Source of the DNA: a virus
Strand: one strand, 5' to 3'
IMG/VR virus record: IMGVR_UViG_3300021960_000538
Coordinates: 1-23,210 of that record
Length of the DNA: 23,210 nt
The first letter of the stretch is position 1. Every line of letters begins with the position of its first letter. Under the pieces are notes generated by a model that had not been told where the DNA came from, did no database searches, and worked only from the letters and a program-made list of their open reading frames with translations. Shown here in pieces: positions 9,001 through 23,210 of the stretch. Made by a program: the position numbers and the translations under genes.

Positions 9001-9572
9001 CCTGTTGGTGTAAATTTATAAACTACGTTGTCATCATTCTCCTCCAATGATACTTTAAAAGTAGAAACTATCTCTTTGTTTTGTCCATAGATAGGTAATA
9101 CCTGTGGGCCGCTTGGTAACCAATAGTATTCTCTAAAGTTAACAAACTTGTCCCAATCAATATGCGGATTCCATGCATAATATTCTTGTGCATTAATTTT
9201 GCTATGATCTTTGTTATTGTTACCAAAAGAACGTAACTGATTAATGTAGTCGTTATAGTCTTTGTAGAAATTAACATTATCTACATTATCTTTTAAAACC
9301 ACTGCTGGCTCTAATTGATAATCTTCTCTTTGTTTTGAAACATCACCGACATAGTTGTCGTCTTGTGTAAATGCTTTCGCATCTTTTCTACCATAATAGG
9401 AATTAAGTTTCTCAACTACACCTGGCTGTGTTAATTGATCAAGTGTACTTGTTAAAAACTTTTTATTTGCTGGAGTTCTAAAATAACGAGGTAAATGGCT
9501 TAAACTGGTTCTTTTTTCATTTTCACCATCTGGATTAATTGGAAATTCGTTTTGATCATTATCATATGCCAT
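1..9572 (-). CDS. Giant virion structural protein, C-terminus beyond the left edge
   Basis: An ATG at 9572 opens a frame that is still open at base 1, so at least 3190 residues are visible; the last readable ones are YLDYIDPIQ. I read the frame along the whole stretch and met no stop. The N-terminus (MAYDNDQNEFPIN) leads into a conserved-looking region with YYAWNPHIDWDKF and FREYYWLP near residues 125-150. Most of the middle is unrecognised beta-rich sequence full of Tyr, Asn and Asp. Four aromatic CBM5/12-like modules lie near residues 1481, 1738, 2232 and 2845. FG-GAP motifs start at 2148 and 2205, then at 2923, 2977, 3034 and 3110. No signal peptide or membrane segment was seen. The start overlaps the gp6 stop as TAATG, and the GGAGG that could serve as its ribosome site lies in gp6's last glycine codons. 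T4 has gp7 in this slot, so a baseplate or fibre role is inferred from position. Gene reality is near certain; function is tentative. Confidence 0.85.
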   Translation of the reverse strand, partial: MAYDNDQNEFPINPDGENEKRTSLSHLPRYFRTPANKKFLTSTLDQLTQPGVVEKLNSYYGRKDAKAFTQDDNYVGDVSKQREDYQLEPAVVLKDNVDNVNFYKDYNDYINQLRSFGNNNKDHSKINAQEYYAWNPHIDWDKFVNFREYYWLPSGPQVLPIYGQNKEIVSTFKVSLEENDDNVVYKFTPTGLTQNPTLKLYKGQTYIFEVDCPGHPIAFATNRAFTPGQAIITETVEGVLAPGKFEAELFDSDGYDTGEYIVEPVEGGITGWTEGDDVSTLYTDGVESATVFVEKGTLKFTVPLDAPDRLFYISKNDVNTSGTILMYNILENTEINVEEEILQKKTYTTRTDVDLSNGMLVEFLGDVTPAKYGEGTWYVEGVGDSIKLINKNDLEITGAYSSNLFVPFDTENFDKLPFGQALNYPKEQDYITINRAAIDGNQWSRHNRWFHRDVIEKVAKANSTEVDIDQSQRAKRPIIEFDPGLRLYNYGSKFKSNVDLIDDKTNDVFSIIEGSIGYNVDGVDLIEGQRVLFTADPDIRVNGRIYKVKFINHLGTRQIALQEETDTDPQLNETVLVQNGTENQGKIYWYNGTKWIKAQDKLTSNQAPLFDLYDDSDTTFSTYESNTFTGTKLFSYKEGSGANDTVLGFPLTYRNIENSGDIVFSFDLLNNEFTYQVGQVSYTQKTDVATLRKYTDLNAYENVSGWKKAATDSKQKVIRQYVVEGQKNNFAVDVYNRSGDLNELDVKVFVNNERRTDWEINRENGIAYITFTKNLTNGDNIILHCTSETDKNDNGHYAFPVNLQNNPLNDNIVDFTYGEVADHVTTIIESVEGFTGTYPGSSNLRNLGQLSEYGTKFVQHSGPVSLASYHITNKNYNIVKSLRFARKEYAKFKRTFISIASELGIDSNARFLTDKIIEKFKSEKSKQTAFYWTDMIGSGANNKRSFTVVDSGNKFYSLTTPFNLNDVSAKAVYVYVNDEQLLHNRDYTFTDEGFIQITNKVTLAVDDIVDVYEYESTDASYIPPTPTKLGLWPLHIPSKYIDNTYQTPQTVIKGHDGSIVKAYGDYRDDVILELERRIYNNIKVAYDKEIFDVDSFIGHKSRDTGFTNEDLDDIIITDFAEWLSIAGDPDYTDNSFYDRTNSFTWNYSYMSDPDSKPLPGFWRAIYKQYFGTDSPHTTPWKILGFIDKPDWWETVYGPAPYTKENLILWEDLQEGRVRQPNNPIRYRPNYARKDLLKYIPVNSQGVLLSPYESGYAQGLIVPETNRQFVFGDEAPTETAWRRSSELPFAYITAWTIHQPAKVIGLGFDRSRTKRNAAKDLVYTGNDKRIRLSDLIFPNTTDSTVRVTTAGLVNYIFNYINADVTKLNKTYSNEVKNLSVQLGFKIGGFTTKDKFRLILDSRTPNNKGNVFIPEENYKIFVNTSSPVDTVSYSGVIIEKRPGGYIVRGYDKAKPYFNYYPYIERAKDPVINVGGVSESFLEWQSGQRYQKDQIVRFGDNYFRVKVSGTFDTFEQDNFAKLTELPIEGGRDAILRRTFETETAKLNYGTLYRTTQEVVDFLLGYGKYLEDKGFVFSKFNNTIETIENWELSAREFLFWTTQNWNSGALITLSPSAVNLQFYRDYAVVDNIFDNFYDYTLLKADGQKLQEDFANTIRSSQNEFGLTLKNTADGIYFVKLPLIQKEHVCLLDNTTVFNDTIYNPGPGYRQQRVRVLGYRSVDWNGSINIPGFTLDNVKITNWEENIDYNISDVVYYKTRYYSAKYKIPGATEFNDDDWYLLTEKPEPKLIPNFDYKANQFADFYDLDTDNFDSEQQRLAQHLIGYQKRTYLENIINDDVSQYKFYQGFIQDKGTLNSLEKLFDALSNTENSSLEFFEDWAFKVGQYGASDSFEEVEYELDESKIRLSPQPFQLTQTIDPLATDLVYRYTPVDVYNKPENYNHAPFPTKYIDENDTYIKTAGYVAEEDINFKVTNYNDILDLDLNQVSVGQYIWVAKKGQTWDVLRQTETDMKVVSITNSDSSKSIEIKTRKAPIVEKDDIIGVLGVGTSQNRFYKVLRVSLDVIYAQTTGEVDDAEETSGFILKLVSSRVSTLNDVNSKITRDNYSTQERVWVDNDENNRWTVVENTNNYELHQSLVNGTIPGTLGTDTRSFGTSISANSNNTIVVAGSPGTTEAGRVDIHFRPGENINLVLSQSIDCPENYLSGENSFGRATALSSDGKWLFVGVPYASNVKTKYRGQFASAAVYQKDEIVKYTNQYWKAKSIIEPTDPSLDFPSFSSHLQHLISTYDTTTNQYDNIYYILRGNFLFQEEQTDHVLIRAPRLAYVATTPGDELELVWNDINSRYPSGVQPFNGNPTLSKTFFNGRHEIVDKIDDILLVDNTQAIPSVGETISSSTAVGIVAFAYTTGDNRTLIYIRDANGDFESTGNLFVGDIAIGAYERAVEQDVDGLGGWWKINVGSNYQSIATIETKPYLVIKDVIQEGSGRTPNYYENVLRITDDASSPTVTSFIESLTFTGDDGDEIADKWVFRAPRSLDANLAVGDTLNFFFNEYRNADNLLQDPSVISSVITHDYLNNNAHTIDDLWDGWIEVNLTNFDDRGSPTEGDADYNPNYGNPFIPVVGDIVQDNDTLATAEVTYVEKTFNDLRLWIKNKTGTWKLGLNNGNISSLSIVGGSQGVGVVRLVGTTDTVNLQSTTAGFIVVVDRGTNLPRGTTRTLQGFEYWVYKSELLDGIARDANPPSKTNNDWQRVYNIPADENGTASTLQRQGAYAIYERNASNFYQLNGIYVTPDLESERYLGSDIKIVSHTNNTYSAYILSKGNGTFDQPGRINIVNWSVNGGWKLGADEDYRGDFLQTVTYFKDEYVKQNGNVYQAKTNLIPGVFNTNDWEEITTGVDLNGFLPNSTGFIVGTDSAIETDNLYEFGTQFGVSFTGDVLTTIAKYGDAVDSSIATRKLVIYRKSLLGHYVFDQMIDAPYANINYGDSIAVSTDGKFIAVGAPNYTDTYANQGTVFIYEQVNGRFEQVQHLIGPKGLPNEKFGTVVRYDNDRIVVHSAGGDLFSNTEIDSGTTVFDNATTRFTSKLVDTGEVFVFELLGNRYVYSDKLEFADKRTLYFGRTMLIKGNHIYVSLPQYTRENNNSSGLVLDYRVKLNSRLWERKRNARPLVNLDKIKGISVYNKDTKIVEEYLDYIDPIQ
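190..806 (-). repeat. FG-GAP repeat group of four (second propeller segment) in the giant protein
   Basis: Four blade-like motifs start at residues 2923 (FGVSFTGDVLTTIAKYG), 2977 (YGDSIAVSTDGKFIAVGAP, then GTVFIYEQ), 3034 (FGTVVRYDNDRIVVHSAGGD, then GEVFVFE) and 3110 (FGRTMLIKGNHIYVSLPQY). The spacing of 54, 57 and 76 residues suits beta-propeller blades. The 2977 copy is the clearest FG-GAP match; the 3110 copy is degenerate. More blades may lie beyond the left edge. Confidence 0.65.
913..1040 (-). repeat. CBM5/12-like aromatic module 4 in the giant protein
   Basis: Residues 2845 to about 2887 contain YRGDFLQTVTYFKDEYVKQN, then NVYQAKTNLIPG, and close with NTNDWEEI. This is a full-length module by eye. 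It lies just before the second FG-GAP group, so modules 3 and 4 bracket the roughly 700-residue stretch between the two propeller segments. Confidence 0.6.
2785..2879 (-). repeat. CBM5/12-like aromatic module 3 in the giant protein
   Basis: Residues 2232 to about 2262 contain YRGQFASAAVYQKDEIVKY followed by NQYWKAK. It sits directly after the first FG-GAP pair. It shares the opening YRG and the Tyr-x-Lys-Asp-Glu core with module 4, so these two copies are the closest relatives. Confidence 0.55.
2895..3131 (-). repeat. FG-GAP repeat pair (first propeller segment) in the giant protein
   Basis: Two tandem motifs start at residues 2148 and 2205 of the giant protein, 57 residues apart. The first reads FGTSISANSNNTIVVAGSPG and continues through GRVDIHF. 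The second reads FGRATALSSDGKWLFVGVP. Both fit the FG-GAP pattern (Phe-Gly, small residue, Ser or Ala, a D/N-G turn, hydrophobic run, V/A-G-x-P) of integrin-type beta-propeller blades. A CBM-like module follows directly. Assignment is by motif only. Confidence 0.65.
4237..4361 (-). repeat. CBM5/12-like aromatic module 2 in the giant protein
   Basis: Residues 1738 to about 1779 begin WEENIDYNISDVVYYKTRYY, continue with SAKYKIPG and end with DDDWYLL. The spacing (Trp, Tyr, Ser-Asp-Val-Val-Tyr, Tyr-Tyr-Ala-like core, final Asp-Trp) is the best match of the four copies to a complete CBM5/12 module. Confidence 0.6.
5060..5132 (-). repeat. CBM5/12-like aromatic module 1 in the giant protein
   Basis: Residues 1481 to about 1505 read WQSGQRYQKDQIVRFGDNYF. 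This is the Trp, Tyr, Asp-x-Val, Tyr layout of small chitin-binding-type (CBM5/12) modules that are common in phage tail proteins. It resembles three other places in the same protein. The similarity is by eye, and the fold and ligand are inferred. Confidence 0.5.
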
Positions 9573-9590
9573 TAGTTACCATAACCTCCG
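9570..9590 (-). promoter_or_regulatory. TAATG overlap with ribosome site inside gp6
   Basis: The last A of the gp6 stop is the first base of the giant gene's ATG. The only strong Shine-Dalgarno match, GGAGG, lies in the final glycine codons of gp6, about 12 bases upstream, a slightly long spacing that suits termination-reinitiation. Confidence 0.65.
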
Positions 9591-12500
9591 CCACTTGAAC
9601 CACTACTGCTTGAAGTAGATGTGCTTGTGCCTGTAGTTATATTTGCAACAGAACTTGTGACACCTGCATTTTGCGTTGATGCTGTTGTTACAACAGCGCC
9701 AGATGCTTTTAATCTTGATGCTGTAATACTGTCTATGATTTGAATATCTTCTACTGTTGCACTTGAAATAAAGATCTCATCACTTTCGGTTGTAATTTCA
9801 TATAAACTTCCGAAAACTTTGTCAGTTTGTTTTGGTACTAACACTATCGTATTAATGTCCGGTGCTAAACTATTCATGATGAAAGTTGCTAACTCTGTAA
9901 AACTAAACTTATCGCCAAAGTCCCAAAACTCTAAACTAAAGAATTGATTAATTGCTGTAACAATACGTAATTTAATATCATTGTCATTTGTTACTTGCTC
10001 AGAATTTTTTACAACTTTAAATGTTGCTTGTAAATCAGTATCTGCTTTGTCACCAAATAGTATTTTGTATTTTACAGGATGATAAATTACTTCGTCACTG
10101 ATACTCTTAATCTTATTAATACTTGATCCAAAGTTTTGAAATAATTCATCTGAACTTGGAGGTAAAGGTTTATTGTTTACTGCACCACTCAAATACTGTC
10201 TAAAACTTCTATCATAGGTTGATGTTAATAGATAAGTATCAATTATATTTGTACTGCTCGGATCTAATCTATTGTTTTCATCTGCACTATGAACATACTG
10301 GAATTTAATTTTATCTCTACCTTTGTATGCTCTATAATTTGTAATTAATGTTAACATTCCTGTAGATGAACTGTACTGTTTAAAGATATCTGCATCTGTA
10401 AAGTAAAAAATTGTTCCATCATCAAACGTTGATAGTGGACCAGTCGATGATTCAAATTCGTATACTTTAATGTTTTCTACTTGTGGATTTACATAATTAA
10501 AATTAGTTGACTGATTGTTTGTAATTTCTTCTTTTAAAAATACCCACTTAGTTAACGGATCAACATTAGGTGCAACAAAAGTTAAAAATGAATCTGGATT
10601 ATCAATAACTCCGTCGGCATCACTATCATAGAAACTTATTTCAACTTTCTTACTGTTTACATAACCTTGTTCATCTCTAAATTCTTTTGTAATTTGCCAA
10701 GGATAATCAATTGTAAATGCTTCTGTGCTACCAGGCTGTTTATTAATAGATAATAAATTTATTTTATCAGTAATTATTTTACCGGATCTACTGTCATAAA
10801 TTTGATCTGTTTCGTCATAGTAGAATCTTACTTCTTTATCACTTTCAAAAATATATCTCACACCTCTGTATGTAATTGTATATTTTTCACCATCTGTTTC
10901 AAACAATAATAACCAACTTGAGTCTAAGTTTTGATTAGATGAATCACCAGTTCTACCTGTGTTAAATGCATTACCAATACTTAGGTTGCTGTTTAAAATG
11001 ACTCTCCATTCTCGATCTGCAAGACTGTAACGTAAACCAAATGTTTTATACGCAAAAATTTGATCAATCATTTGCGAAATTACGTCATCTGTAAGTGATG
11101 TAGCAAACTTAGGTTTAATTTCATTTAATAATGCACCTGTTGGAATAACCTCATTAAAGATTATCGGGCCTTGGCCGTCTTCATAATTCTCAGTACCATC
11201 ACTGTTAACTTGAACTACCTTTGTCCAAATAAAAGTTGTAGCATTTGGATGATCCGCGGCGCCGTCCATTAACTTATTATAATCGTCAGTCATAAAATGC
11301 TTACCAGCAGGAGCAATAAATTTAATAAGTGCGCCTGGTTCTAAATATCTTAGTGTACTACCTGTAAATGTTCCTGTGGTTAGTTTGATATTATTTGTAT
11401 CTTCTAAGTAACCGCTTGAGTTATTAGTCTGTCTTGCAACTTGTGTCCATGTGGCTCCTAAATCATCAGCCGCCGTTTTTGGAAATTCGCTAAGATAAAA
11501 ATTCTTAATAAGAACATTTCTTAAAATAGGTTGTACAGTATTTTCAATAGCGCCTTCAACATCTGTTCTTGTTACAAATGAAAAGTTAATTTTTTTGTCA
11601 AATACTTCTCTATAAATTGCACCGTCATCTCCATAGATATTTGTGCTTGAATATTTTCCTGTAGAATCAATTAAGTCAAAGTATCTACTAATACCACTTG
11701 ACGTTCTATTAATACTTTTACTTTTAATAATTTCTTGGCTAATCGACCTTGGTGCTACTTGATAATCTTCACCTGTGATCATTCTATTTTGTGTATAGAA
11801 TGTTGACGGTGCATTTGTTTTAATACTTGTGTTTGTTTCTGTAGCACTTGCATTATCAACTGTATATTTTAATGAAGCAGTAATAGTAATAGTTTCATTA
11901 CTGCCTGTTCTACTTTCATAAGGAACAGTAATAGAAATATTTGTTAACTCTTCTGGTTGAATTGCAAATCTTCTACCAATAGATTTTCTGTAGTAAACTC
12001 TAAATCTTCCTTTAGGTAAATTACCAAACGTTCCGTCTGCAAATAATAAACTAATTCTATCTTCAATACGTGTTAATACAGTATAGATATCTCTTTGACT
12101 TTTACTAAGACTATTGTAAATTACGTTGTTACCTTCAATTGCATCAACCTTTGTCCATTGCGATGCTTCGTTACCATTTGAATCTAATTTATAAAGCCAA
12201 ACATCACTGTTATTAATATTAGTTGCATCAATTGCAACTGTTTGGTTTGTAGTAGGTGTATCAATTGTAAATGTGCCGTTGTCTAAAACACCTTGTCTAA
12301 AATGGACAAAGTATCCTGTATTAGAACTACCAGCGCCTTTGCCATCTTCTCTATATAAGAATGCTAAACTGTTACCAGGTAAAGGTGTTTCTTCGTAAAT
12401 TTTGTCTGGTGTAATACCTGCAGATGTAACTTCAAACACCATATTTTTCTCGCCAACGTTTTTGTTAAAACTATAAACTGGCAAGTTTGCATTTGTAGCA

Positions 12501-13069
12501 TTATAACGATACTGTTCTGTTGTAATACCGTTAATTGTTTCTTTTTTAATTGGACGACCAACGATAGCATTTTCAGGTAATGCCGCATTCAAAACTTTGC
12601 GGAACTGCTCTGACCAGTCTGGATTACTTGGGTCATTCCAAATAATTGTTTGGTTAGAAAGATTTACTCCATTGCTATCTGTAATATCTTCTGAAGTTTG
12701 TACGCTTTCAAACTTTAACAAACCGTTTGCTGTTTGATTACGCTTTGGATTGTAAGAAAGTAAACGTGCAAGACGTAGTACGCTTTCTCTACGCTCTGCA
12801 AGTTCTAAGTAGTTTTCACGAGCATTTAGATCTACACGGAAAGCAAGGTTTTGACCTAAATATGCAATTAAATCAATAAGTGCAAGGTACTCTGAACTTT
12901 CAATATAATCGTTGAAATCTTCTGGATAATTTTCACGCAGATAGGAGATCATTGTTCGACGTAGACTATCAAAATCATACGACTTAAAGTCTGCGTTTTT
13001 AAATGTTTGATATACTCGCTTCCAATCTTCTGCAAGTAATAATCTGTTCTGTCTATCTGTTGTTGACAT
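9572..13069 (-). CDS. gp6: Baseplate wedge protein gp6, enlarged form
   Basis: T4 gp6 forms the inner wedge ring of the contractile-tail baseplate. Residues 1-110 are strongly gp6-like (SLRRTMISYLRENYPEDF, then LIDLIAYLGQNLAFRVDLNA and ESVLRLARLLSYNPKR). The gpJ-family motif TQNRMITGEDYQ lies near residue 425. The C-terminal third (IYHPVKYKILFG, FFSLEFWDFGDKFSFTEL) also suits a baseplate J-like protein. At 1165 residues it is much longer than the roughly 660 of T4 gp6; residues about 530-950 look like added material. The last 35 residues are Ser/Thr/Gly-rich and probably disordered. The start has a good AAGGA six bases upstream, in a short leader from its own late-type promoter. The stop overlaps the next start as TAATG. 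Confidence 0.93.
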   Translation of the reverse strand: MSTTDRQNRLLLAEDWKRVYQTFKNADFKSYDFDSLRRTMISYLRENYPEDFNDYIESSEYLALIDLIAYLGQNLAFRVDLNARENYLELAERRESVLRLARLLSYNPKRNQTANGLLKFESVQTSEDITDSNGVNLSNQTIIWNDPSNPDWSEQFRKVLNAALPENAIVGRPIKKETINGITTEQYRYNATNANLPVYSFNKNVGEKNMVFEVTSAGITPDKIYEETPLPGNSLAFLYREDGKGAGSSNTGYFVHFRQGVLDNGTFTIDTPTTNQTVAIDATNINNSDVWLYKLDSNGNEASQWTKVDAIEGNNVIYNSLSKSQRDIYTVLTRIEDRISLLFADGTFGNLPKGRFRVYYRKSIGRRFAIQPEELTNISITVPYESRTGSNETITITASLKYTVDNASATETNTSIKTNAPSTFYTQNRMITGEDYQVAPRSISQEIIKSKSINRTSSGISRYFDLIDSTGKYSSTNIYGDDGAIYREVFDKKINFSFVTRTDVEGAIENTVQPILRNVLIKNFYLSEFPKTAADDLGATWTQVARQTNNSSGYLEDTNNIKLTTGTFTGSTLRYLEPGALIKFIAPAGKHFMTDDYNKLMDGAADHPNATTFIWTKVVQVNSDGTENYEDGQGPIIFNEVIPTGALLNEIKPKFATSLTDDVISQMIDQIFAYKTFGLRYSLADREWRVILNSNLSIGNAFNTGRTGDSSNQNLDSSWLLLFETDGEKYTITYRGVRYIFESDKEVRFYYDETDQIYDSRSGKIITDKINLLSINKQPGSTEAFTIDYPWQITKEFRDEQGYVNSKKVEISFYDSDADGVIDNPDSFLTFVAPNVDPLTKWVFLKEEITNNQSTNFNYVNPQVENIKVYEFESSTGPLSTFDDGTIFYFTDADIFKQYSSSTGMLTLITNYRAYKGRDKIKFQYVHSADENNRLDPSSTNIIDTYLLTSTYDRSFRQYLSGAVNNKPLPPSSDELFQNFGSSINKIKSISDEVIYHPVKYKILFGDKADTDLQATFKVVKNSEQVTNDNDIKLRIVTAINQFFSLEFWDFGDKFSFTELATFIMNSLAPDINTIVLVPKQTDKVFGSLYEITTESDEIFISSATVEDIQIIDSITASRLKASGAVVTTASTQNAGVTSSVANITTGTSTSTSSSSGSSGGGYGN

Positions 13070-13089: not shown

Positions 13090-13116
13090 TATTTATTTGA
13101 TTCGATTATCAGAGTA
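13090..13116 (-). promoter_or_regulatory. T4-late-type promoter for gp6 and the giant gene
   Basis: AATAAATA (13097 to 13090) sits in the 56-base gap after gp25, with TACTCTGATAAT (13116 to 13105) seven bases upstream. Predicted transcription start is 13084, with a 15-base leader holding AAGGA before gp6. Box, following CTT and upstream 12-mer are shared with the site at 18869-18894. Confidence 0.65.
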
Positions 13117-13590: not shown

Positions 13591-15063
13591 TTACGCACCG
13601 TCTTTCTTAAATGTATCTGGTATTGTATCTATGTCTGTAGCAGATGGAATCTCAACATCATTTGTTCTATCTGTTTGCTCAGGTGAATACTGTTCTGGAT
13701 CCACGTTTTCGTGGTGTCCCCACGGCTCATGCTGTGGTAAGCGTTTGTGCAAGGACGCGACAGCGGTAGCGGTAGCGCCGGGAACCATGTGAGTGGACAA
13801 CGGAGTTGTGGCTACAGCGGTTGGACCGTTCATATGGATCTGTAGTGCAGTTTCAAAATGTCCTAATCCACTGTTAATATTAGATGTTGTTCCGCTTGTG
13901 ATATTAGTTGATAAACCTGCCAGTGATTGAATAGAAGTTGTAGTTTCTAAATTAATACCAAGGTTTGTAAGTAGATTAAATGATCTACCTGCCTGTAAAT
14001 TAATATCTCTGTCAGCAGTAATGTTTAGATCATTCTCAGTGTGCATACTGATTGAGTCTTTTGCATACACATCAATTTTACCATTAGCACTCATTTCAAT
14101 CCATGAATTACCACTGCCATGATCTATACGCACAAGATCTTCTGTGTTATGAAAAAGTATTTGATGCCCTGTACGTGTTCTAATACGCATCAGTTCATTT
14201 GCTGGTAAATCTGCACGTCCAGATGTATCACCTTTACCTACATTTGCATATTCTTTTTTAGTGTTTGTAGCGAAACCTTTGCGTAAAAATTTATCGTCAC
14301 CGTCATCCATTACAAAATGCGTTCCGCCGAGGCGGCCAAATGGAATATCCGCTTGTGTTCCTGCAGTACCGTACTTGGCTTTTTGATAGCCTGGTCGTTT
14401 ATCATAAGGTCCTGGAGTTGAAATACCAAATACCATGCTTGGTACTTCACGTCTTGCACTTGCAGTACTCAGTCCACGCACACCATCGCTGGCTAATCCT
14501 TGTTGGCCTAATATTTCCATCCAGTCTTCGTTGATGGGTTTTTTAAACTTAGTAGGATCGTTGCCTTTGTTATCTTCAAGATTCTTTTTGTTTATTTCGC
14601 CAACTACTGCTTTGCCTGTGTAGAAAACACTGTCTACACTGCCTTTGGTTTCAGGGGATCCAGTGTAGTGTGTTGTTGCTACCCTGTCAGGCATTGAGAA
14701 GTTGATATAATTGTCTTGGACACAACCAATCCAGAATCCCATGTTAACCTGTCCTTCAATAAACACCACAATTACTCGTGTGCCAATATCTGGAGGGGTC
14801 ATCCAAAAGCCATATGCTTGTTGTGTGTATTTGTGTCCTTGATTTTTAGTAAGTCCTGTTGCAGGAGTTTGTCCTACAAACGGTCCACCGTATTTTACTT
14901 TTACTGTTTGTCCGTCAAGTCCTTGGTTACTACTTGTGCTTAGTTTAATCAACTCAACTTCAATTGCACCCATGTAGTTAGGATCAAGGTGGCCTACTAC
15001 CCTGCCGATATACGGCCCGGGAAAATATTTAGGTTCGTTGCCGGCGGTACGTGTTTCTTGCAT
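13591..15063 (-). CDS. gp5: gp5-like baseplate central spike without a lysozyme domain
   Basis: The N-terminal 135 residues form a gp5-type OB-fold domain (GPYIGRVVGHLDPNYMGAIE, YGFWMTPPDIGTRVIVVFIE, MGFWIGCVQDNYIN). Residues 320-399 are ten uninterrupted octapeptides (for example NDLNITAD, RDINLQAG, LGINLETT), the pattern of the intertwined beta-helix needle of T4 gp5C and VgrG. Between them T4 carries a lysozyme domain; here residues 150-300 show no T4-lysozyme-like motif, so the spike probably only punctures. The C-terminal tail has an unusual His-rich segment, LPQHEPWGHHENVDPEQY. At 490 residues it is shorter than T4 gp5 (575). The start is backed by TAGGAAATATAAT, ten bases after the hub-candidate stop. 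The last 150 coding bases are markedly GC-rich. Confidence 0.88.
   Translation of the reverse strand: MQETRTAGNEPKYFPGPYIGRVVGHLDPNYMGAIEVELIKLSTSSNQGLDGQTVKVKYGGPFVGQTPATGLTKNQGHKYTQQAYGFWMTPPDIGTRVIVVFIEGQVNMGFWIGCVQDNYINFSMPDRVATTHYTGSPETKGSVDSVFYTGKAVVGEINKKNLEDNKGNDPTKFKKPINEDWMEILGQQGLASDGVRGLSTASARREVPSMVFGISTPGPYDKRPGYQKAKYGTAGTQADIPFGRLGGTHFVMDDGDDKFLRKGFATNTKKEYANVGKGDTSGRADLPANELMRIRTRTGHQILFHNTEDLVRIDHGSGNSWIEMSANGKIDVYAKDSISMHTENDLNITADRDINLQAGRSFNLLTNLGINLETTTSIQSLAGLSTNITSGTTSNINSGLGHFETALQIHMNGPTAVATTPLSTHMVPGATATAVASLHKRLPQHEPWGHHENVDPEQYSPEQTDRTNDVEIPSATDIDTIPDTFKKDGA
13867..14106 (-). repeat. Ten tandem octapeptide repeats (needle beta-helix) in gp5
   Basis: In register, the octads are SWIEMSAN, GKIDVYAK, DSISMHTE, NDLNITAD, RDINLQAG, RSFNLLTN, LGINLETT, TSIQSLAG, LSTNITSG and TTSNINSG. 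Position 3 is usually Ile, Leu or Phe, position 4 is Asn in six of ten, and position 5 is usually hydrophobic. Eight residues per rung is the known period of the T4 gp5C trimeric beta-helix. Confidence 0.85.
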
Positions 15064-15073
15064 ATTATATTTC

Positions 15074-17686
15074 CTACGTTGTACTATTCAAAGCGCCTTG
15101 GCCTTGTGCCGCGGCTTCAGCGTTTAAAATCTTTTGATTGTTTTGACTTGCAATAATCAAATCTGCATTTTCTCCATCTTCGCCCACTTCTTCAGCCAAC
15201 TGTGCTTTTTGTATATTTTTGATTGCATTGCCAGTAAGTTTAGGTTTAATCTCTTGATTAGTCTTGCTCTCTGTATCCTGTGAAGTAACTTTCTTAGGAT
15301 ACTGATTGCTTCTACGTATACATTCAAGTGTTTGCTTGAACTGACCATCTGAAATCATATTCTTTACTGTGGTTACCAAATACAATCCGCTAAATGCATC
15401 AACTGAAACTGTTTCGTCTGGAAATCCCATCATTCCGTTTTCTTTGTAATCAACCGGCGTTCTAAAATTAATAACAATATCCACTTCGCCGTATTGATAG
15501 TCAACGTTTCCGTCTGCATCAATGTTTATTAGTTCTGTGTTCTCAGAATTGTAGTTTCCGATTCCGCTGTCTGAAAGATAATAAGGATCTCCCCAAATTT
15601 CCATTTCAACTGATAACAAGTCAGCATCTGAATTTACAATAGCATCGTTGAATCTACGTGCTATCTCTACTCGCATATCATCAACGTTTACTGCACCTGC
15701 GGCAATACTTTTGTTTTCTAACACAGGAGCAGACTTACCGCTAATTGCTTGATCGTTGTCTGCAGGTGTTTGCTCAATATGTTGTTCTGGATTTTCACCT
15801 TCTTTGCCGCCTTCTTCAACATTGAGTCTTGGTAAAACTCCTGGACTCATGCTTTTAAAGAATGTGTTATCTAAATTAATGTTGAAGTTAATAATGTCTT
15901 CGTTCCTACCACTGTAGATGTAGTTGTATTCTTTACACACTTGTTTTTTCAATGCGCCAATACCATAAGGAATTTTATCAGGTGATAAAAACTTGGCTTC
16001 GTGTACTTTGTATGGCAAAATTCTAAACACATAAATTCTTGGTGGTTGGCCTGTTTTCTTTTCTGTTGTAGGATCTGTGATGTTAAACACCTGTGTGTCA
16101 ATTTTAAACCAGTCTTTGAATCCTGTTCCGTCACTTGGCGCACTAATAACATTTCTACCATATGAACTAATGATAATAAGTTCTTCAATAATATCTTGAA
16201 TACGTGTTCCTTGTGCAAACTTGATTTCTCCAAGTCCTGGTGCAATTTGCATTTGTCCGCCATCTCTGGCCCAAACATTTAATTCTTTATTCCAAGTAAA
16301 ACTTGCATCTCCAAACGGTTGTTGAGTTGAACCAAGTTCTTCAAGATTAAACATTTTTGATACACCAATTACGTTGGCATTTTCTTTACCAGTTTGCTTA
16401 TCTGTAATCTCTTGTCCTAACGATGTTGTTGATACCATTGTAGTTAGGTTTTCGATATATGTTTCAAACTCTTCTTTAGGTATCTCACCGTCTTTTAATT
16501 TTTTGTATATTTCTTGAATCTTTGCACTACTGACTGTGTTACGTGTCGACTGTTGACTGCTAACAGATACACTCGGTGAGGCATTGTTTTGTGCAGTAGT
16601 TGCACTGTTGCCGCCATCGCTGGTAACACCTGAAAGATTGCCTTTGGTAGCACGAGCCTTTGGAAATACTATAAAGTATTGATCTGCTGTGCTAATTGTG
16701 CCGTCAATGGCTTTTTTAGCAAAATATTTGTTTAATTCATTTGCTAAACTTTTTGGACTACTTTGTAGTAGGTCTTCAAGTGTTCTACCTGTTAGAGTTA
16801 CATCTACAGGAATACTTTGAGTAGCGTCTTTTAGTGCGCCTTCGTTATATGCAACTCCTTCTACAACATAAGAACTACCGCCATTTGTAACTTCAAGTTC
16901 ACTGCCTACAAGTTTGAAAGGTAATTTTTTTGATGCTTGTGGAACATTAACTGGATTACCATCTTGGTCATAACCAACAAAATCCAAAGTTAACAAAAAA
17001 GGACTTTCAGTATAGTTTTGATGTCCTGCTTGATATGCCGCCATTTGCAGTGTTTGTAAAAATAGTCCCATACTGTAAGGTTCTAAAATTTCTAAACGAA
17101 ATCCTACAGCATTGGTTGTACCTTTTCTTCTACTTGGTGAAATAATACTTTCAATTTCTAAACTGTTGCAGAAAAATTCAATCTTTCTACCACTGCTTTC
17201 ATATGCTGTTAAAACTTTTGAATTTCCTAAGCCGCCGCCACTTTGCATAATTGCAACTTCTGGTTTTTTAATTTTATAAGTTGCGTCTGGATTATTAATC
17301 TCTTCGTTTGTAAGTGCATACATTCCAATAATGTAATTGTAACTTGCAAACTGTCTTAAAGAATTAGGCAAAGGTAATTGTAATACTCTACCATCTGCTG
17401 TGTATGCTGTCTTCTGAGGATCAATTGTTACTTTTTCAACAACAGTTGATTTTGTTTCACTGGGTTTTACTTTTTCTTCCGGTGCGTCAGTTGCTTTTTC
17501 TTTATTAACTGTGGTGTCAGTGGACGATGCATTAGTATCAATGTCTGAACTATCTGGTGTTCCTGGACCATAATCACCATCAGTAAATTGATTGGCATCA
17601 GCATTTAGGGCATCTTTGTTTTCATTAACAAAGTCTCTCATTAGATCTGTTGGACTTTTTCCTGGGGGTGCTAATGGTTTGGCCAT
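15074..17686 (-). CDS. Large structural protein, probable baseplate hub (gp27-position candidate)
   Basis: This 870-residue protein lies between gp53 and the gp5-like spike, where a hub that carries gp5 would be expected. After a polar N-terminus, residues about 40-90 are an acidic, Ser/Thr-rich linker. A folded region follows (IEFFCNSLEIESIISPSRR, then RLEILEPYSMGLFLQTLQMA). Near residue 495 is IQDIIEELIIISSYGRNVIS. Near residue 766 is GLYLVTTVKNMISDGQFKQT with LECIRRS, resembling the final domain of hub proteins of the gp27/gpD type. The last 90 residues are polar and may be coiled or disordered. T4 gp27 is only about 391 residues, so homology is not established; the hub role rests on position and that C-terminal motif. 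The start is supported by TAGGAG, inside the end of gp53, three bases of gap before the ATG. Confidence 0.75.
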   Translation of the reverse strand: MAKPLAPPGKSPTDLMRDFVNENKDALNADANQFTDGDYGPGTPDSSDIDTNASSTDTTVNKEKATDAPEEKVKPSETKSTVVEKVTIDPQKTAYTADGRVLQLPLPNSLRQFASYNYIIGMYALTNEEINNPDATYKIKKPEVAIMQSGGGLGNSKVLTAYESSGRKIEFFCNSLEIESIISPSRRKGTTNAVGFRLEILEPYSMGLFLQTLQMAAYQAGHQNYTESPFLLTLDFVGYDQDGNPVNVPQASKKLPFKLVGSELEVTNGGSSYVVEGVAYNEGALKDATQSIPVDVTLTGRTLEDLLQSSPKSLANELNKYFAKKAIDGTISTADQYFIVFPKARATKGNLSGVTSDGGNSATTAQNNASPSVSVSSQQSTRNTVSSAKIQEIYKKLKDGEIPKEEFETYIENLTTMVSTTSLGQEITDKQTGKENANVIGVSKMFNLEELGSTQQPFGDASFTWNKELNVWARDGGQMQIAPGLGEIKFAQGTRIQDIIEELIIISSYGRNVISAPSDGTGFKDWFKIDTQVFNITDPTTEKKTGQPPRIYVFRILPYKVHEAKFLSPDKIPYGIGALKKQVCKEYNYIYSGRNEDIINFNINLDNTFFKSMSPGVLPRLNVEEGGKEGENPEQHIEQTPADNDQAISGKSAPVLENKSIAAGAVNVDDMRVEIARRFNDAIVNSDADLLSVEMEIWGDPYYLSDSGIGNYNSENTELINIDADGNVDYQYGEVDIVINFRTPVDYKENGMMGFPDETVSVDAFSGLYLVTTVKNMISDGQFKQTLECIRRSNQYPKKVTSQDTESKTNQEIKPKLTGNAIKNIQKAQLAEEVGEDGENADLIIASQNNQKILNAEAAAQGQGALNSTT

Positions 17687-17689
17687 TGT

Positions 17690-17983
17690 TTATTCTCCTA
17701 ACAACTGTCTTAGTCTACTGCCCTTAGGAACATATATTTCTAAACCTGATCTAAAATCAAACACTGGATCTTTAAGAGAGTCCATATTTCTCTGAGCAAA
17801 CACCCACCAAAGTTTTGGGTCACCATACATATCGTATGCTAACAGATCAGGTCTTTGATGATACTGCGGTTGAATTTCATACACTACATCGTCACCATCT
17901 TCTGGCACTGTACGAATACTTAAAATATCCAAGTATTCATTTCTTACAAAACGTGTTTTACCCCATGGAGAATTATTAGCCAT
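17690..17983 (-). CDS. gp53: Baseplate wedge protein gp53, short form
   Basis: The 97 residues are almost entirely the conserved gp53 core: the lead-in YHQRPDLLAYDMYGDPKLWW, then VFAQRN, DPVFDFRSGLEIYVPKG. gp53 joins wedges into the hexagonal baseplate around the hub. T4 gp53 is about 196 residues, with a LysM-like part; this form is half that length but looks complete, ending just after the IYVPKG motif. The ATG overlaps the preceding stop as TAATG, with AAAGGA nine bases upstream, so translation is probably coupled to the cap gene. Its last codons contain the ribosome site of the next gene. Confidence 0.87.
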   Translation of the reverse strand: MANNSPWGKTRFVRNEYLDILSIRTVPEDGDDVVYEIQPQYHQRPDLLAYDMYGDPKLWWVFAQRNMDSLKDPVFDFRSGLEIYVPKGSRLRQLLGE

Positions 17984-18846
17984 TAAATAAATCCTTTACC
18001 AGTTTCAATATAGCCGCCTTTAACAAAAGTGTCTAAACTGAATTTTTCTACTTCTGCTCTTGAGTAGATTGGTTGTAGTGTAACTGTTACCTGGCTTTCT
18101 ACAGGAACATAAGCAATATGTCCTCTGTCAGTATTTCTTGTAATAGTATTAATAGTGTCTGCACCATTAAAACCAAAATCAAGATCTACAGCAAGATAGT
18201 CAACATCAGTTGGCATATCTAAAGTAAAGTTTGTAATGATAACAGGAACATCTTTGAATACATAATCTCCATATCCGTTTAATTTTACAATCGGTGGCGG
18301 AGCACCTTGATTAGATGTTTGTCCATAAAACATTTTTGTAACACTTCGCAAATAATGCAACATTGCAATCCAATATTCGCCTTCTAAAGAATTTTGTACA
18401 ATAAACTGGCCTGTCAATGTCATTGCATCCACACTTGAGTTCTGGTATGCAAAGAACGGATAATTACTATGTACTGGTGTAATTGCATTATAACTTGCTT
18501 GATGACTCATAATAATTGTAGGCGTATATGGAAAACACAATCCGCCCGTAGAAGTAATCAAACGTTGAATGTAAGGACTTTCTGTAAATGCTTTAAGAGG
18601 AGGTATACTTAGTTTGACTCTCCAATCCTTTGAATTAGGATCCTGTGCCCAACTTGCACTTGCAACTTCAATATTTGGTGGCTCTCCATCTGTAGGAATT
18701 GTGCGAGAACGAATTGCTTTCATGAAACCTTTGCCACCCGCAGATAATACATCGACAGTTTGTTTTGCTAAATCTTTAGTCGTGTCAATAATATCCCCTG
18801 TAGTTATCGGAGTTTTAAATTCGTTAAAGTCAAATGTGTCAGCCAT
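17983..18846 (-). CDS. Baseplate/tail-tube junction protein, gp48/gp54 class
   Basis: This 287-residue protein is first in the virion block. Its features suit the tube-like fold of T4 gp48 and gp54, which cap the hub and start tail-tube polymerisation: VDAMTLTGQFIVQNSLEGEY with WIAMLHYLRSVTK recalls the gp54 stretch around YRAMQDWVNSV. DVPVIITNFTLDMPTDVDYL followed by a beta-strand and PVESQVTVTLQPIYSR recalls the gp48 C-terminus. I cannot choose between gp48 and gp54; marine relatives are usually labelled gp48. A GAGGA lies about ten bases before the ATG, in a short leader from the late-type promoter at 18869-18894. It ends in a TAATG overlap with gp53. Confidence 0.7.
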   Translation of the reverse strand: MADTFDFNEFKTPITTGDIIDTTKDLAKQTVDVLSAGGKGFMKAIRSRTIPTDGEPPNIEVASASWAQDPNSKDWRVKLSIPPLKAFTESPYIQRLITSTGGLCFPYTPTIIMSHQASYNAITPVHSNYPFFAYQNSSVDAMTLTGQFIVQNSLEGEYWIAMLHYLRSVTKMFYGQTSNQGAPPPIVKLNGYGDYVFKDVPVIITNFTLDMPTDVDYLAVDLDFGFNGADTINTITRNTDRGHIAYVPVESQVTVTLQPIYSRAEVEKFSLDTFVKGGYIETGKGFI

Positions 18847-18868
18847 AATTGGTAATCCTCGTTACAAG

Positions 18869-18894
18869 TATTTATTGACAAAATTATCAGAGTA
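18869..18894 (-). promoter_or_regulatory. T4-late-type promoter for the baseplate block
   Basis: On the minus strand AATAAATA (18876 to 18869) is one base from the T4 late consensus TATAAATA. With T4 spacing, transcription starts at 18863, giving a 17-base leader containing GAGGA before the cap gene. The element TACTCTGATAAT (18894 to 18883) lies six bases upstream and recurs before gp6. Confidence 0.65.
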
Positions 18895-18903
18895 TATTAT
18901 AAT
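18875..18903 (+). promoter_or_regulatory. Consensus sigma70 promoter for gp55
   Basis: TTGACA (18875-18880) and TATAAT (18898-18903) are separated by exactly 17 bases, a perfect consensus match. Transcription would start near 18910, leaving an 18-base leader with GGAG before the GTG of gp55. Its -35 and spacer overlap the leftward late-type promoter. Confidence 0.85.
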
Positions 18904-18927
18904 AAGGCTTATAAATGGAGAAAAAGT

Positions 18928-19761
18928 GTGAAAAGAGTAAACTATCTGAACAACAAAGACATATTAGCAGAGATACACAAATCAAAAAGCAGTTATTGCA
19001 GTTTTGTAGACCAAGACTACAATCAATTTGACATTATTTTACCCAGCATTGATAAAATTAACGTTAGAACTATTGCAGAAGCAAAAAGAAATAAAGCAAA
19101 AAGATTAGGTGATGCAGATTATGCCGCACGTAAAGAAGCAGGCGAAAAGGTTAAACAGGCAGACTGTGCTATAGACTATAGAAAAATCACAAAAGAAGAA
19201 TTGATCTTCCGTATTATGACATTTGATCACATTCCGGAAGAAAAAGGACGTAAGAAAAATCCTAAAACAATAGCAGACACAAAAGTAAAATTAAATTTTC
19301 CACCATTCCAGCATTTCAAGTTTGATGATAACGACAACTTAATTTGCGTTGGAAAAAGTCACTGGGAAGGTGGTATGGAAAATGGTACATTTAACTTAGG
19401 AGTAGGAAAAGCAACTCAAAAACTTGCTATGATGTGGATGAAATTATGTGATCGCTATGCTACAAGAGGAAATGTAAGAGGCTATACCTACAATGACGAA
19501 ATGCGTGGACAAGCAATTCTACAACTTGCTCAAATTGGTTTGCAATTTGATGAATCAAAGTCCCAAAACCCGTTTGCATACTACACAGCGGCCGTTACAA
19601 ATTCGTTTGTAAGAGTCATTAATATTGAAAAACGTAATCAAAATATACGTGATGACATTTTAGAAATGAACGACATGACTCCAAGTTATACTCGTCAAAG
19701 CCAAGGTGAATGGGAAAGACAAGTTGAAGAACAAAGAGCAAAAATGGCTAAGGGCGAATAA
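18928..19761 (+). CDS. gp55: Late-transcription sigma factor gp55
   Basis: gp55 is the T4-family sigma factor that, with gp33 and the sliding clamp, redirects host RNA polymerase to late TATAAATA promoters. Residues 4-14 (VNYLNNKDILA) match the T4 N-terminal YVNNKELLQ. Residues 160-245 are the sigma core: LAMMWMKLCDRYATRG, YNDEMRGQAILQLAQIGLQF, DESKSQNPFAYYTAAVTNSF and NIEKRNQNIRDDILEM, collinear with T4 gp55. At 277 residues it is about 90 longer than T4 gp55 (185), and the extra length is a Lys-rich segment between residues about 20 and 150. It starts at GTG, with GGAG seven bases upstream. A consensus sigma70 promoter lies directly upstream, which suits early expression. Confidence 0.9.
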   Translation: MKRVNYLNNKDILAEIHKSKSSYCSFVDQDYNQFDIILPSIDKINVRTIAEAKRNKAKRLGDADYAARKEAGEKVKQADCAIDYRKITKEELIFRIMTFDHIPEEKGRKKNPKTIADTKVKLNFPPFQHFKFDDNDNLICVGKSHWEGGMENGTFNLGVGKATQKLAMMWMKLCDRYATRGNVRGYTYNDEMRGQAILQLAQIGLQFDESKSQNPFAYYTAAVTNSFVRVINIEKRNQNIRDDILEMNDMTPSYTRQSQGEWERQVEEQRAKMAKGE

Positions 19762-19765
19762 GTTC

Positions 19766-19794
19766 TTGACTTTATTAAATTTTTGTTGTAAAAT
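19766..19794 (+). promoter_or_regulatory. Sigma70-type promoter for gp47-gp46
   Basis: TTGACT (19766-19771) and TAAAAT (19789-19794) are 17 bases apart, each one base from consensus. They lie in the 62-base gap between gp55 and gp47. Transcription would start near 19801, 23 bases before the TTG start, and would include the GAGG ribosome site. Confidence 0.7.
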
Positions 19795-19812
19795 AATAAG
19801 ACAGTAAAAATA

Positions 19813-19826
19813 GAGGTATTATTTTG
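19813..19826 (+). promoter_or_regulatory. Ribosome site fixing the TTG start of gp47
   Basis: GAGG (19813-19816) is seven bases before TTG (19824). The TTG start keeps the DIHFG metal-binding motif at residues 10-14, as in Mre11-family proteins; the next ATG lies well past it. Confidence 0.75.
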
Positions 19827-20828
19827 TTTAAAAAATGTGCAGTATTTACAGACATTCACTTTGGGTTGAAATCTAACTCAAAGGCGCACAACGAAGACTG
19901 TGAAGAATTTATTGATTGGTATATTGAAAAAGCCAAAGAGCATGGATGCGAAACAGGCATCTTTATGGGCGATTGGCATCATAACAGAAACAGTTTGAAC
20001 ATTGTTACTATGGATTATTCAATCCGTAGTCTTGAAAAACTTGGAAAAGCATTTGAACAATTTTTTTACTTTCCAGGCAATCACGACTTGTATTACAAAG
20101 ACAAAAGAGATATTCAAAGTGTAGAGTTTGCAAAACACATTGAAGGTATTACTGTTGTTGACGAAATTACAACTATTGGTGATAGCACTATGGTTCCGTG
20201 GCTGGTTGGTGAAGAATGGAAAAAGATTCCTAAAATCAAAAGCAAATATATGTTTGGTCACTTTGAACTTCCAAACTTTTACATGAATGCTATGGTACAA
20301 ATGCCTGAAACAGGCGAACTACAATCAAAACATTTTGTACATCAAGACTATGTGTTTAGTGGACACTTCCATAAAAGACAAACACAAGGTAATGTAACTT
20401 ATATTGGTAATGCATTTCCACACAACTATGCAGATGCTTGGGATGACAAGCGTGGTATGATGATTCTCGAACATGGTGGAGAACCTCAATATCTTGATTG
20501 GGAAGGTTGTCCTAAGTATAGAACTGTAAAACTTAGCCAACTAATTGATCAAAAAGACACATTGATGAAAGAAAAAATGTATCTTAGAGTAACACTGGAC
20601 ATTAATATTAGTTACGAAGAAGCAAGTTTTATCAAAGAAGAATTCCAACGTCAGTTTAACTGTCGTGAAATTACACTTATTCCAAGTTTACAAGATGATC
20701 AAATTAACACTGACATCGATATTACTAAATTTGAAAGCGTTGACCAGATTGTAGCAGAAGAAATTAACGCTATCGAAAGTGAAAACTACAACAAACAAAC
20801 ACTGCTAAACATTTATAACGAGTTATAG
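19824..20828 (+). CDS. gp47: Recombination endonuclease subunit gp47 (Mre11/SbcD family)
   Basis: Metallophosphatase nuclease that pairs with gp46 to resect DNA ends for T4-type recombination-dependent replication and host DNA breakdown. The phosphoesterase motifs are all present: DIHFG (D10, H12), GDWHHNR (D50, H52), GNHD (N86, H87), GHFE (H146) and GHFHKR (H181, H183). The 334 residues match the family (T4 gp47 about 339). Translation starts at TTG with GAGG seven bases upstream; starting at the next ATG would lose the first metal motif. It has its own sigma70-type promoter in the gp55-gp47 gap and is followed by gp46 after three bases, so the two are probably made together. Confidence 0.95.
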   Translation: MFKKCAVFTDIHFGLKSNSKAHNEDCEEFIDWYIEKAKEHGCETGIFMGDWHHNRNSLNIVTMDYSIRSLEKLGKAFEQFFYFPGNHDLYYKDKRDIQSVEFAKHIEGITVVDEITTIGDSTMVPWLVGEEWKKIPKIKSKYMFGHFELPNFYMNAMVQMPETGELQSKHFVHQDYVFSGHFHKRQTQGNVTYIGNAFPHNYADAWDDKRGMMILEHGGEPQYLDWEGCPKYRTVKLSQLIDQKDTLMKEKMYLRVTLDINISYEEASFIKEEFQRQFNCREITLIPSLQDDQINTDIDITKFESVDQIVAEEINAIESENYNKQTLLNIYNEL

Positions 20829-20831
20829 AAT

Positions 20832-22601
20832 ATGTTGATCAAAGATTTAACCGTAAAAAACTTTATGAGCGTTGGTAATCAAACGCAGGCTGTTGATTTC
20901 AGTAATAGACAACTTACACTTGTCCTTGGAGAGAATCTTGATCAAGGAGGCGATGATAGTGGCTCCCGAAACGGAACTGGTAAGACCACTATCATTAATG
21001 CCCTTTCATATGCATTATATGGACAAGCACTAACTAACATTCGTAGAAACAATCTAATTAATAAAACTAACGGCAAAGGAATGTTAGTTACACTTAATTT
21101 TGAAAAGAATGGTACAAAGTACAGAATTGAAAGAGGCCGAGGACCTAATGTACTAAAGTTTTTTATTAACGAAGAAGAAAAAGAAATTACAGACGAGTCG
21201 CAAGGCGATTCAAGAGAAACACAAAAAGAAATTGACGACTTATTACAAATGAGTCACGATATGTTTAAGCATTTGGTTGCACTAAACACGTATACCGAAC
21301 CGTTCTTAAGTTTAAAACCAAATGATCAACGTGCTATTATTGAACAATTACTTGGTATTACTATACTTTCTGAAAAAGCAGAACAATTAAAAGTAAAACA
21401 AAAAGAAACACGTGACGGTATTACAGAAGAAACTGCGAGAATAAACGGTATTCAAACTGCAAATGAAAAAGTTGCGGAAACTATTGAAAGTTTAAAAGTA
21501 AAATCAAGTGCATGGCGTCAACAAAATGCTAAAGACTGCGAACGTTTACAAAACGGCATTGACGAATTAGAACACTTAGACATTGAAACAGAACTTGCAA
21601 ATCACGAATTGCTATCTAAATGGTCTGAAAACGACAAACACAAACGCAATTTAGAAAAAGAACGTGCTACACTTGAAAGTGCATTAAGTCAAACAGACAG
21701 ACAAGTTGATAAATTTACAAAAGACTTAGAAGGTTTGAATGATGCAAAGTGTCATGCTTGTGGACAAGACTTACACGAAGATAAAAAACACGAGATTGAA
21801 ACTAAACTTCAAGAAGAATATGGCGAAACTATGTCATATCTATTTGAAATTAACACAAAGTTTGAAAAGGTTCAAACTAAACTGTCTGAAGTAGGTGATT
21901 TAGATTCTAAACCAACTACATTTTATGAAACTGCAAAAGAAGCATATGATCATAGAAGCAATGTTGAGAATCTAAAACAAGCATTGAAATCAAAAGAAAC
22001 AGAAAGCGATCCTTATGTAGATCAAATTGAAGAACTTGAGAACACTGCTATTCAAGAAGTAACCTGGGACAAAGTTAACGATCTAACTGTAGAGCAAGAA
22101 CACCAAGCATTCTTATATAAACTGTTGACAAACAAAGATTCGTTTATTCGTAAGAAAATTATTGAACAAAATCTTGCATATCTTAACAATAGACTTACAT
22201 ACTATCTTGATAAAATTGGATTACCGCATACAGTTGTATTCCAAAACGATCTTGCAGTTATGATTACACAACTTGGACAGGATTTAGACTTTGATAACTT
22301 GTCAAGAGGTGAACGTAACAGATTAATCTTAGGATTAAGTTTTGCATTCCGTGATGTATGGGAAAGTTTATATCAAAACATTAACTTGTTATTTGTTGAC
22401 GAACTTATTGACAGTGGAATGGACACAGCAGGTGTAGAACACAGTTTGGCTATTCTTAAGAAAATGGGTAGAGAACGTAAAAAGAACATTTATTTGATCT
22501 CACACAAAGACGAATTACAAGGTCGTGTTAATAATGTACTTAAGGTTATAAAAGAAAACGGCTTTACCAGTTATGCAAACGATATTGATGTAGTACAATG
22601 A
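20832..22601 (+). CDS. gp46: Recombination endonuclease subunit gp46 (Rad50/SbcC-like ATPase)
   Basis: SMC-like ATPase partner of gp47. Walker A is GSRNGTGKTT at residues 44-53. Long charged helices follow (about 170-430), interrupted by a zinc-hook CHAC (C307, C310). The C-terminal lobe has the ABC signature LSRGER (490-495), Walker B LLFVDELID (D523, E524) and the H-loop ISHKDE (H558). All catalytic elements are intact. The 589 residues are close to T4 gp46 (560). The ribosome site is weak (GAG about ten bases upstream), consistent with translational coupling to gp47. The stop overlaps the next start as ATGA. Confidence 0.96.
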   Translation: MLIKDLTVKNFMSVGNQTQAVDFSNRQLTLVLGENLDQGGDDSGSRNGTGKTTIINALSYALYGQALTNIRRNNLINKTNGKGMLVTLNFEKNGTKYRIERGRGPNVLKFFINEEEKEITDESQGDSRETQKEIDDLLQMSHDMFKHLVALNTYTEPFLSLKPNDQRAIIEQLLGITILSEKAEQLKVKQKETRDGITEETARINGIQTANEKVAETIESLKVKSSAWRQQNAKDCERLQNGIDELEHLDIETELANHELLSKWSENDKHKRNLEKERATLESALSQTDRQVDKFTKDLEGLNDAKCHACGQDLHEDKKHEIETKLQEEYGETMSYLFEINTKFEKVQTKLSEVGDLDSKPTTFYETAKEAYDHRSNVENLKQALKSKETESDPYVDQIEELENTAIQEVTWDKVNDLTVEQEHQAFLYKLLTNKDSFIRKKIIEQNLAYLNNRLTYYLDKIGLPHTVVFQNDLAVMITQLGQDLDFDNLSRGERNRLILGLSFAFRDVWESLYQNINLLFVDELIDSGMDTAGVEHSLAILKKMGRERKKNIYLISHKDELQGRVNNVLKVIKENGFTSYANDIDVVQ

Positions 22602-22804
22602 GCATACAAGACGACACTCACGACAAATTAACAAAAGCATATTTGGAATATTTCAAAGCAAATGAGCGTTTTGAGAAAAATCGTGGTGTTAGAACTATGC
22701 AGGACACTCGGAAGTGGCTCAGAGAAATACGTACACTTGCTAAAATACGTATGGAAGAAGTAAAAAGCACTTACGATTCCAAAAAAGACACCAAGGCACA
22801 ATAG
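22598..22804 (+). CDS. Small conserved-looking hypothetical protein
   Basis: A 68-residue, highly charged, probably all-helical protein (YLEYFKANERFEKNR, then TRKWLREIRTLAKIRMEEVK). The ATG overlaps the gp46 stop by four bases (ATGA), which supports it as a real, coupled gene. I do not recognise a named family, though the arginine/lysine helix resembles short hypothetical proteins seen in marine T4-like phages. It could be a small DNA-binding or accessory protein of the recombination complex, but that is only suggested by context. Confidence 0.75.
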   Translation: MSIQDDTHDKLTKAYLEYFKANERFEKNRGVRTMQDTRKWLREIRTLAKIRMEEVKSTYDSKKDTKAQ

Positions 22805-22822
22805 TCTCGGGTAAGTATCCAT

Positions 22823-23210
22823 ATGCAATGGACTTACAAAGGACAAGAAGTAACAGAAATCCCAGAAGGCATAGAAGGCTTTGTTTACCTTATAACTAAT
22901 TTAACAAACAATCGTAAGTATGTAGGCAAAAAACTCGCAAAATTCAAAAAAACTCGCCCACCACTTAAAGGCAAAAAAAATAAACGTAGAAGCAAAGTAG
23001 AATCAGACTGGAGAGACTATTGGGGATCTTCAGATCATTTACTTGAAGATGTACAAAACATAGGCCCTGAAAAATTTACCCGAGAAATTTTACACTACTG
23101 TGAAAGCAAAGGCGTATTAAGTTATCTTGAAGCCAAAGAACAATTCGATAGACGTGTCTTAGAAACTGATGAATACTATAACGGCATTATTAATGTGCGT
23201 GTTGGAAGTT
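22823..23210 (+). CDS. GIY-YIG-family nuclease-like protein, C-terminus beyond the right edge
   Basis: An ATG at 22823 opens a frame running off the window (129 codons visible). Residues 20-37 read FVYLITNLTNNRKYVGKK, in which VYL and YVG are the two halves of a GIY-YIG motif. SDWRDYWGSS (61-70), KFTREILHYC (84-93) and YLEAKEQFD (101-109, with a candidate catalytic Glu) follow in the usual order. Such proteins are sometimes homing endonucleases of the Seg type, but here there is no sign of an intron or interrupted gene, so a resident phage nuclease is equally likely. The ribosome site (GGGTAAG) is weak; the gap to the previous gene is 18 bases. Confidence 0.8.
   Translation, partial: MQWTYKGQEVTEIPEGIEGFVYLITNLTNNRKYVGKKLAKFKKTRPPLKGKKNKRRSKVESDWRDYWGSSDHLLEDVQNIGPEKFTREILHYCESKGVLSYLEAKEQFDRRVLETDEYYNGIINVRVGS

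Follow-up and report, generated by a model that had tools for sequence, protein, structure and literature searches.

Late promoter activity in bacteriophage T4 requires gp55, gp33 and gp45 and takes place during replication. The promoters consist of an 8-bp box and are described as having no upstream or −35 element, gp33 not reading DNA sequence (PMC2988020), and CTAAATA is a reported variant of the late box in Aeh1 (PMC1524935). For gene 55, T4 uses Pe40.4 and Pm55; its MotA boxes are centred at −30, where they replace the ordinary −35 contact (PMC6024815). The small T4 protein DsbA has specific sites overlapping two late promoters, shows weak AT-rich binding and is encoded by a non-essential gene (PMC2988020). 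In phi29 the activator of the late promoter is a product of early transcription, and it opens that promoter while closing the early promoters from which it is itself expressed (PMC3100819).

Results

The gp55 locus

The window analysed here is an IMG/VR virus fragment of 23,210 bases originating from a large T4-related phage, whose features are collected in Table 1. The gene for a gp55 homologue, which is followed by homologues of gp47 and gp46, faces away from a baseplate/structural cluster that runs leftward from position 18846. The 81 bp that separate gp55 from the leftward baseplate genes contain two complete, opposed predicted promoters that are interleaved over ~35 bp. Read along the plus strand, the late −10 box comes first, followed by the sigma70 −35 hexamer, an upstream (−30) element of the late promoter and the sigma70 −10 hexamer. 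A separate 10/12 sigma70-like site (TTGACT-17-TAAAAT) is found at 19766-19794 between gp55 and the gp47 homologue, the latter having an apparent TTG start at 19824.

An earlier sequence-only reading of this DNA had taken the gp55 gene product for the late sigma factor, an assignment supported by its match to phrog_12791. The comparison with T4 gp55 (PDB 7d7c_F) gives a sequence E value of 3e-8 and a fold probability of 1.00, in the sigma2 part only, and the phage hence encodes the homologue expected where T4-type late promoters are in use. The family carries in addition, lying after the N-terminal helix and ahead of the sigma2 part, a region of ~135 residues (about 23-160) that is absent from T4 gp55. 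This region is modelled confidently (pLDDT about 90) and is a candidate for reading the −30 element; in a PDB fold search it had no match, only the sigma2 part being matched.

Table 1. Positions of the genes and predicted promoter parts in the window.
Feature	Position	Strand	Basis
gp55, late sigma factor, 277 aa, GTG start	18928..19761	+	phrog_12791 E=6e-76; PDB 7d7c_F (T4 gp55)
Divergent virion structural gene, heads the leftward baseplate cluster	17983..18846	-	phrog_12050 E=2e-46
gp6 homologue, baseplate wedge subunit	9572..13069	-	phrog_10646 E=1e-293
−35 hexamer TTGACA of the predicted gp55 early sigma70-type promoter	18875..18880	+	TTGAC invariant in 62/62 distinct sites of relatives
−10 hexamer TATAAT of the predicted gp55 early promoter; predicted start near 18910	18898..18903	+	invariant, 62/62
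Late-promoter −10 box AATAAATA, core TAAATA 18869-18874; predicted start near 18863	18869..18876	-	NTAAATA, then Shine-Dalgarno and start codon in relatives
Late-promoter upstream (~−30) element, ATATACTCTGATAAT on the late strand; inside the sigma70 spacer, abuts its −10	18883..18897	-	gp6 matrix
Late box AATAAATA of the gp6-homologue gene; comparison promoter without sigma70 overlap	13090..13097	-	box and gene identity
Second 12-mer copy TACTCTGATAAT, upstream element of the gp6 late promoter	13105..13116	-	fixed spacing in 31/31 relatives

Two opposed predicted promoters in one gap

The sequence-only reading had placed a perfect sigma70 promoter in front of gp55, with a −35 hexamer overlapping a leftward late box by two bases and a shared 12-mer inside its spacer, and all three observations hold. 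The TTGACA-17-TATAAT arrangement expected of a sigma70 early promoter is present at gp55 (18875-18903, plus strand, a 12/12 match) and is the sole 12/12 sigma70-like site within 15000-23210, and the pattern TTGAC-N18-TATAAT matches once in the window against a chance expectation of 0.04. Bases 18875-18876 are common to the −35 hexamer and the AATAAATA box, the core TAAATA merely abutting TTGACA. The 12-mer ATTATCAGAGTA occurs in exactly two copies in the window, at 18883-18894 and at the gp6 late promoter (13105-13116), each time upstream of a late box.

That the leftward site is a late promoter, as also proposed before, is supported by its anatomy, nearly all relatives having the box, a Shine-Dalgarno sequence and a start codon 16-27 nt past the box; in most of them the box reads CTAAATA. 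More generally, −10 boxes resembling TATAAATA stand upstream of late structural genes (the gp55-divergent gene and gp6), and upstream of genes the late box is over-represented, ~8-fold for both ATAAATA and TAAATAC, the class "late" resting here on box, position and gene identity. The two copies of AATAAATA in the window both lie upstream of leftward structural genes, but 4.4 would be expected, so that their number is not used as evidence.

Conservation of the overlap

Retention of the overlap in close relatives was the check that the sequence-only reading had itself put forward. From IMG/VR and GTDB genomes we obtained 213 distinct regions upstream of gp55, among which 162 belong to a gp55 at least 60% identical to that of the window; leaving out L415, whose upstream region is coding, gives 161 comparable sites, and 158 of these keep the overlap. 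In 155 sites TATTTA (plus strand) is found 0 or 1 nt before TTGAC, beyond which there are two with TATACT as −10 and one with an additional second promoter; a count by a stricter pattern also comes to 155. The conserved part is a ~40-bp block with scrambled flanks, TATTTAG-TTGAC-N4-TTA-N5-GTA-N2-TTATAAT, which is almost letter-perfect: there is no variation in TTGAC, in TATAAT or at the inner positions of the late box, whereas beyond the block the information content of most columns is below 0.6 bits. With at most one mismatch allowed, 19 of 20 long contigs have the pattern made of spacer and hexamers at gp55 (the L056 contig is the exception), and in viral contigs 103 of the 119 matches to TTGAC-N4-TTA-N5-GTA-N2-TTATAAT precede gp55, ~7 more being cut off by contig ends. 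Since it is conserved to this extent, in 158/161 sites and 19/20 long contigs, the overlap is more than chance. All gp55 matches in the isolate collection searched were below 60% identity, so none is a close isolate, and a BLASTN search of phage records with the intergenic region gave unrelated AT-rich matches only.

In the gp55 tree the overlap is confined to one clade, with a nested loss. The three exceptions, L056 (=L251), L079 (=L267) and L284, form a single nested clade (support 100/97) with a new sigma70 promoter ~60 bp to the right; the old hexamers have decayed and the late box and spacer element are retained at the same distance. L085 has two sigma70-type promoters upstream of gp55, one overlapped and a second just downstream, and is apparently an intermediate toward separated promoters. 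Relatives with a gp55 less than ~60% identical (PA5oct, 121Q, Vibrio 2.275.O, SCTP-2, XaC1, L474-L477) do not have this overlap; in those that are annotated gp55 and the structural cluster still point away from each other, and many PA5oct-like relatives have no late box within the stretch examined. Being kept above ~60% identity and missing below it, the overlap is a derived feature of one broad clade. In L474, L475, L476 and L477 (58-60%) a TTGCTT/TTGCAT-17-TATACT-like site faces gp55 from the other side of the late box; it lies inside the divergent leader and is conserved across the four MAG contigs.

A −30 element shared by a subset of late promoters

A listing of late-like boxes in five sequences, the window and four long relatives, brought out the spacer sequence upstream of gp6 as well. 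In 31/31 distinct gp6 promoters the late box is accompanied, at one fixed distance, by a partly palindromic element with the consensus TTAASTACGYASTTAA, also written AATTAWATACGYASTTWW, and the bases that separate the two are conserved much less than the element. A matrix built from the gp6 sites and applied at the exact gp6 distance matches 11/12 gp55-divergent promoters against 3/1116 control TAAATA boxes (Fisher 5e-23, for sites of relatives that are not independent samples and contigs that are metagenomic fragments). The remaining gp55 site of the twelve matches with a one-base shift; in the window the element stands 1 nt closer to the box than usual, so that such a shift is expected for its site. 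Symmetry peaks at −17 from the box in both the gp6 and the gp55 set, reaching only ~0.5 against a background near 0.3, which would put the centre of the element at about −29/−30 if, following T4 numbering, the box is taken as −12 to −6.

Could this sequence instead be part of the sigma70 promoter? This possibility was rejected: the gp6 promoters carry the element without sigma70 hexamers, and it persists after decay of the sigma70 promoter at gp55. In L390 (~52% identical), Atu_ph07 (~39-40%) and L407/L408, TTAAC/TTAAG stands 9-10 nt past the late box and no sigma70 promoter is found there, which pointed to the late promoter as the owner. Together with L056, L079 and L284, seven relatives thus keep the element beside the late box despite the absence of the sigma70 promoter. 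On this evidence the spacer sequence belongs to the late promoter, a point missed by the sequence-only reading, and the interleaving is accordingly deeper than a two-base overlap. A paired change of the element at gp55 and gp6 within one genome was also considered and is not general, the L023/L158 contig having CTCTG at gp55 and CGCAC at gp6.

Most other late boxes are without the element, which therefore marks a subset of late promoters. Similar elements lie upstream of tail-tube homologues and of genes for proteins of 95-97 aa, the latter giving no match in a PHROG search. When the element is written as a regular expression, 20 of 36 matches fall within 90 nt upstream of genes, against 7% expected. 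General matrix scans of whole genomes stayed at background level in coding sequence, so that only enrichment upstream of genes and fixed spacing are counted here. At a few genes the element is found at other distances, at the box or downstream of it, and this variable placement, together with its restriction to some late promoters, would fit a repressor as well as an activator. T4-type late promoters are described as showing no sequence conservation upstream of the box; given the conserved −30 element on a subset, we file the present promoters as a variant of the T4-type gp55-dependent late promoter.

Elsewhere, perfect palindromes like ATATCTACGAAGTAGATAT or a close variant of it occur a few to ~20 bases upstream of late boxes in G001 (L202-L208, ~83997), G004 (~58041), G021 (~96214) and G025 (~74550), and are possibly another operator of the factor that would read the −30 element. 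An element TAACTACGTAGTT is located 17 nt before a radical-SAM-like gene (phrog_14086) in G004 (L428-L433, ~9659), where no adjacent late box was seen.

Discussion

The arrangement is probably best explained as a switch built from interleaved promoters. Early in infection, host sigma70 polymerase would use the consensus rightward promoter to express gp55, and gp55-programmed polymerase, once available, would take the leftward promoter of the baseplate genes and keep the host polymerase off the gp55 promoter. Polymerase footprints cover some 70 bp, which means that both sites could hardly be occupied at once; the proposal of the sequence-only reading that two polymerases would be unable to sit there together thus finds support in footprint size. 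Mutually exclusive promoter use combined with negative feedback on gp55 would be the outcome, and this is the likeliest function of the locus. The −30 element would strengthen the late side, its reader probably being either the late polymerase or a DNA-binding factor of the phage, and since the element occupies the sigma70 spacer and touches the −10 hexamer, its binding should also shut the gp55 promoter. On the other hand, gp55 might be made mainly before any late polymerase exists, in which case the feedback could be negligible, and it counts against the switch that relatives below ~60% identity do well without the overlap. A more general formulation, to which we give somewhat less than even chances, is that the late promoters of these phages are two-part, with a partly palindromic −30 element read by a phage factor and a gp55 box, and that at gp55 such a promoter is intertwined with the two parts of a sigma70 promoter; when the factor or the late polymerase binds, the baseplate genes would at one stroke be turned on and the sigma gene turned off.

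An additional DNA-binding protein may act at the element, and one can imagine that it is the principal actor. A phage dimer bound to the −30 element could work as an operator-binding protein like p4 of phi29, activating the late promoter and repressing that of gp55, with polymerase competition being secondary. The element is centred alike in gp6 and gp55 sites (the symmetry peak at −17), some of the late promoters share it, its position within the sigma70 spacer is one at which repressors often act, and there is a precedent in phi29, whose p4 is an activator of late A3 and a repressor of early A2b/A2c (PMC3100819). However, no such protein was found and the symmetry of the element is imperfect; we consider this possible, at roughly one chance in three. 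A dual-acting DNA-binding factor would in any case be an extension compatible with the switch.

The main rival, which we regard as unlikely and which is itself compatible with the switch, is that the overlap represents an evolutionary trap: both promoters are needed, they became interleaved in a short gap, and as every base now serves one promoter or the other the overlap persists by constraint, with no useful switching. Phage genomes are compact, the gap has only ~80 bp, and the promoters are separated in distant relatives. Moreover, a new sigma70 promoter apparently has to arise before escape is possible, L085 having both and L056, L079 and L284 having replaced the old one by another ~60 bp away. 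That only one escaped clade is seen among ~160 sites, even though separated layouts work in relatives, argues weakly against a mere trap. Finally, the idea that AATAAATA beside TTGACA is chance AT-rich sequence and that the sigma70 promoter alone matters is very improbable, because the box may not be over-represented in the window by itself but box, element, Shine-Dalgarno sequence and start are kept over ~160 sites and are common to the gp6 promoters.

If the switch exists, the phage would limit its own late sigma factor by geometry alone, without an extra protein, in a design that hardly varies within a large clade of mostly marine phages not yet cultured. With or without the switch, the −30 element contradicts the textbook view of gp55-dependent late promoters as having no upstream element, and points to a partner of gp55 that reads DNA and has no T4 counterpart, or else to a regulator specific for some of the tail/baseplate genes. 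The assignment of the spacer sequence to the late promoter is new here. Among the titles and abstracts listed by full-text searches, which mostly do not extend to subscription journals, none described gp55-dependent promoters with an upstream element, and none an early promoter of gp55 that is interleaved with a late promoter.

Compared with the late promoters of T4, the present ones are alike in their gp55 homologue, their NTAAATA-type −10 box about one turn before the predicted start and the structural genes they precede, and differ in that some of them have the −30 element at a constant distance. Pfam models of T4 gp33 and DsbA gave no matches here, their controls being silent too. The MotA box of the MotA/AsiA middle promoters is likewise a phage-specific element centred near −30, but it works with sigma70, while the element described here accompanies a gp55-type late box. 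In layout the locus resembles the A2c-A2b-A3 region of phi29, regulated by p4 and p6, where early and late promoters are also packed closely on opposite strands. In phi29, however, DNA-binding activators act with the host sigma factor, whereas in the present phages the early gene codes for a sigma factor and the interleaving extends to the promoters themselves.
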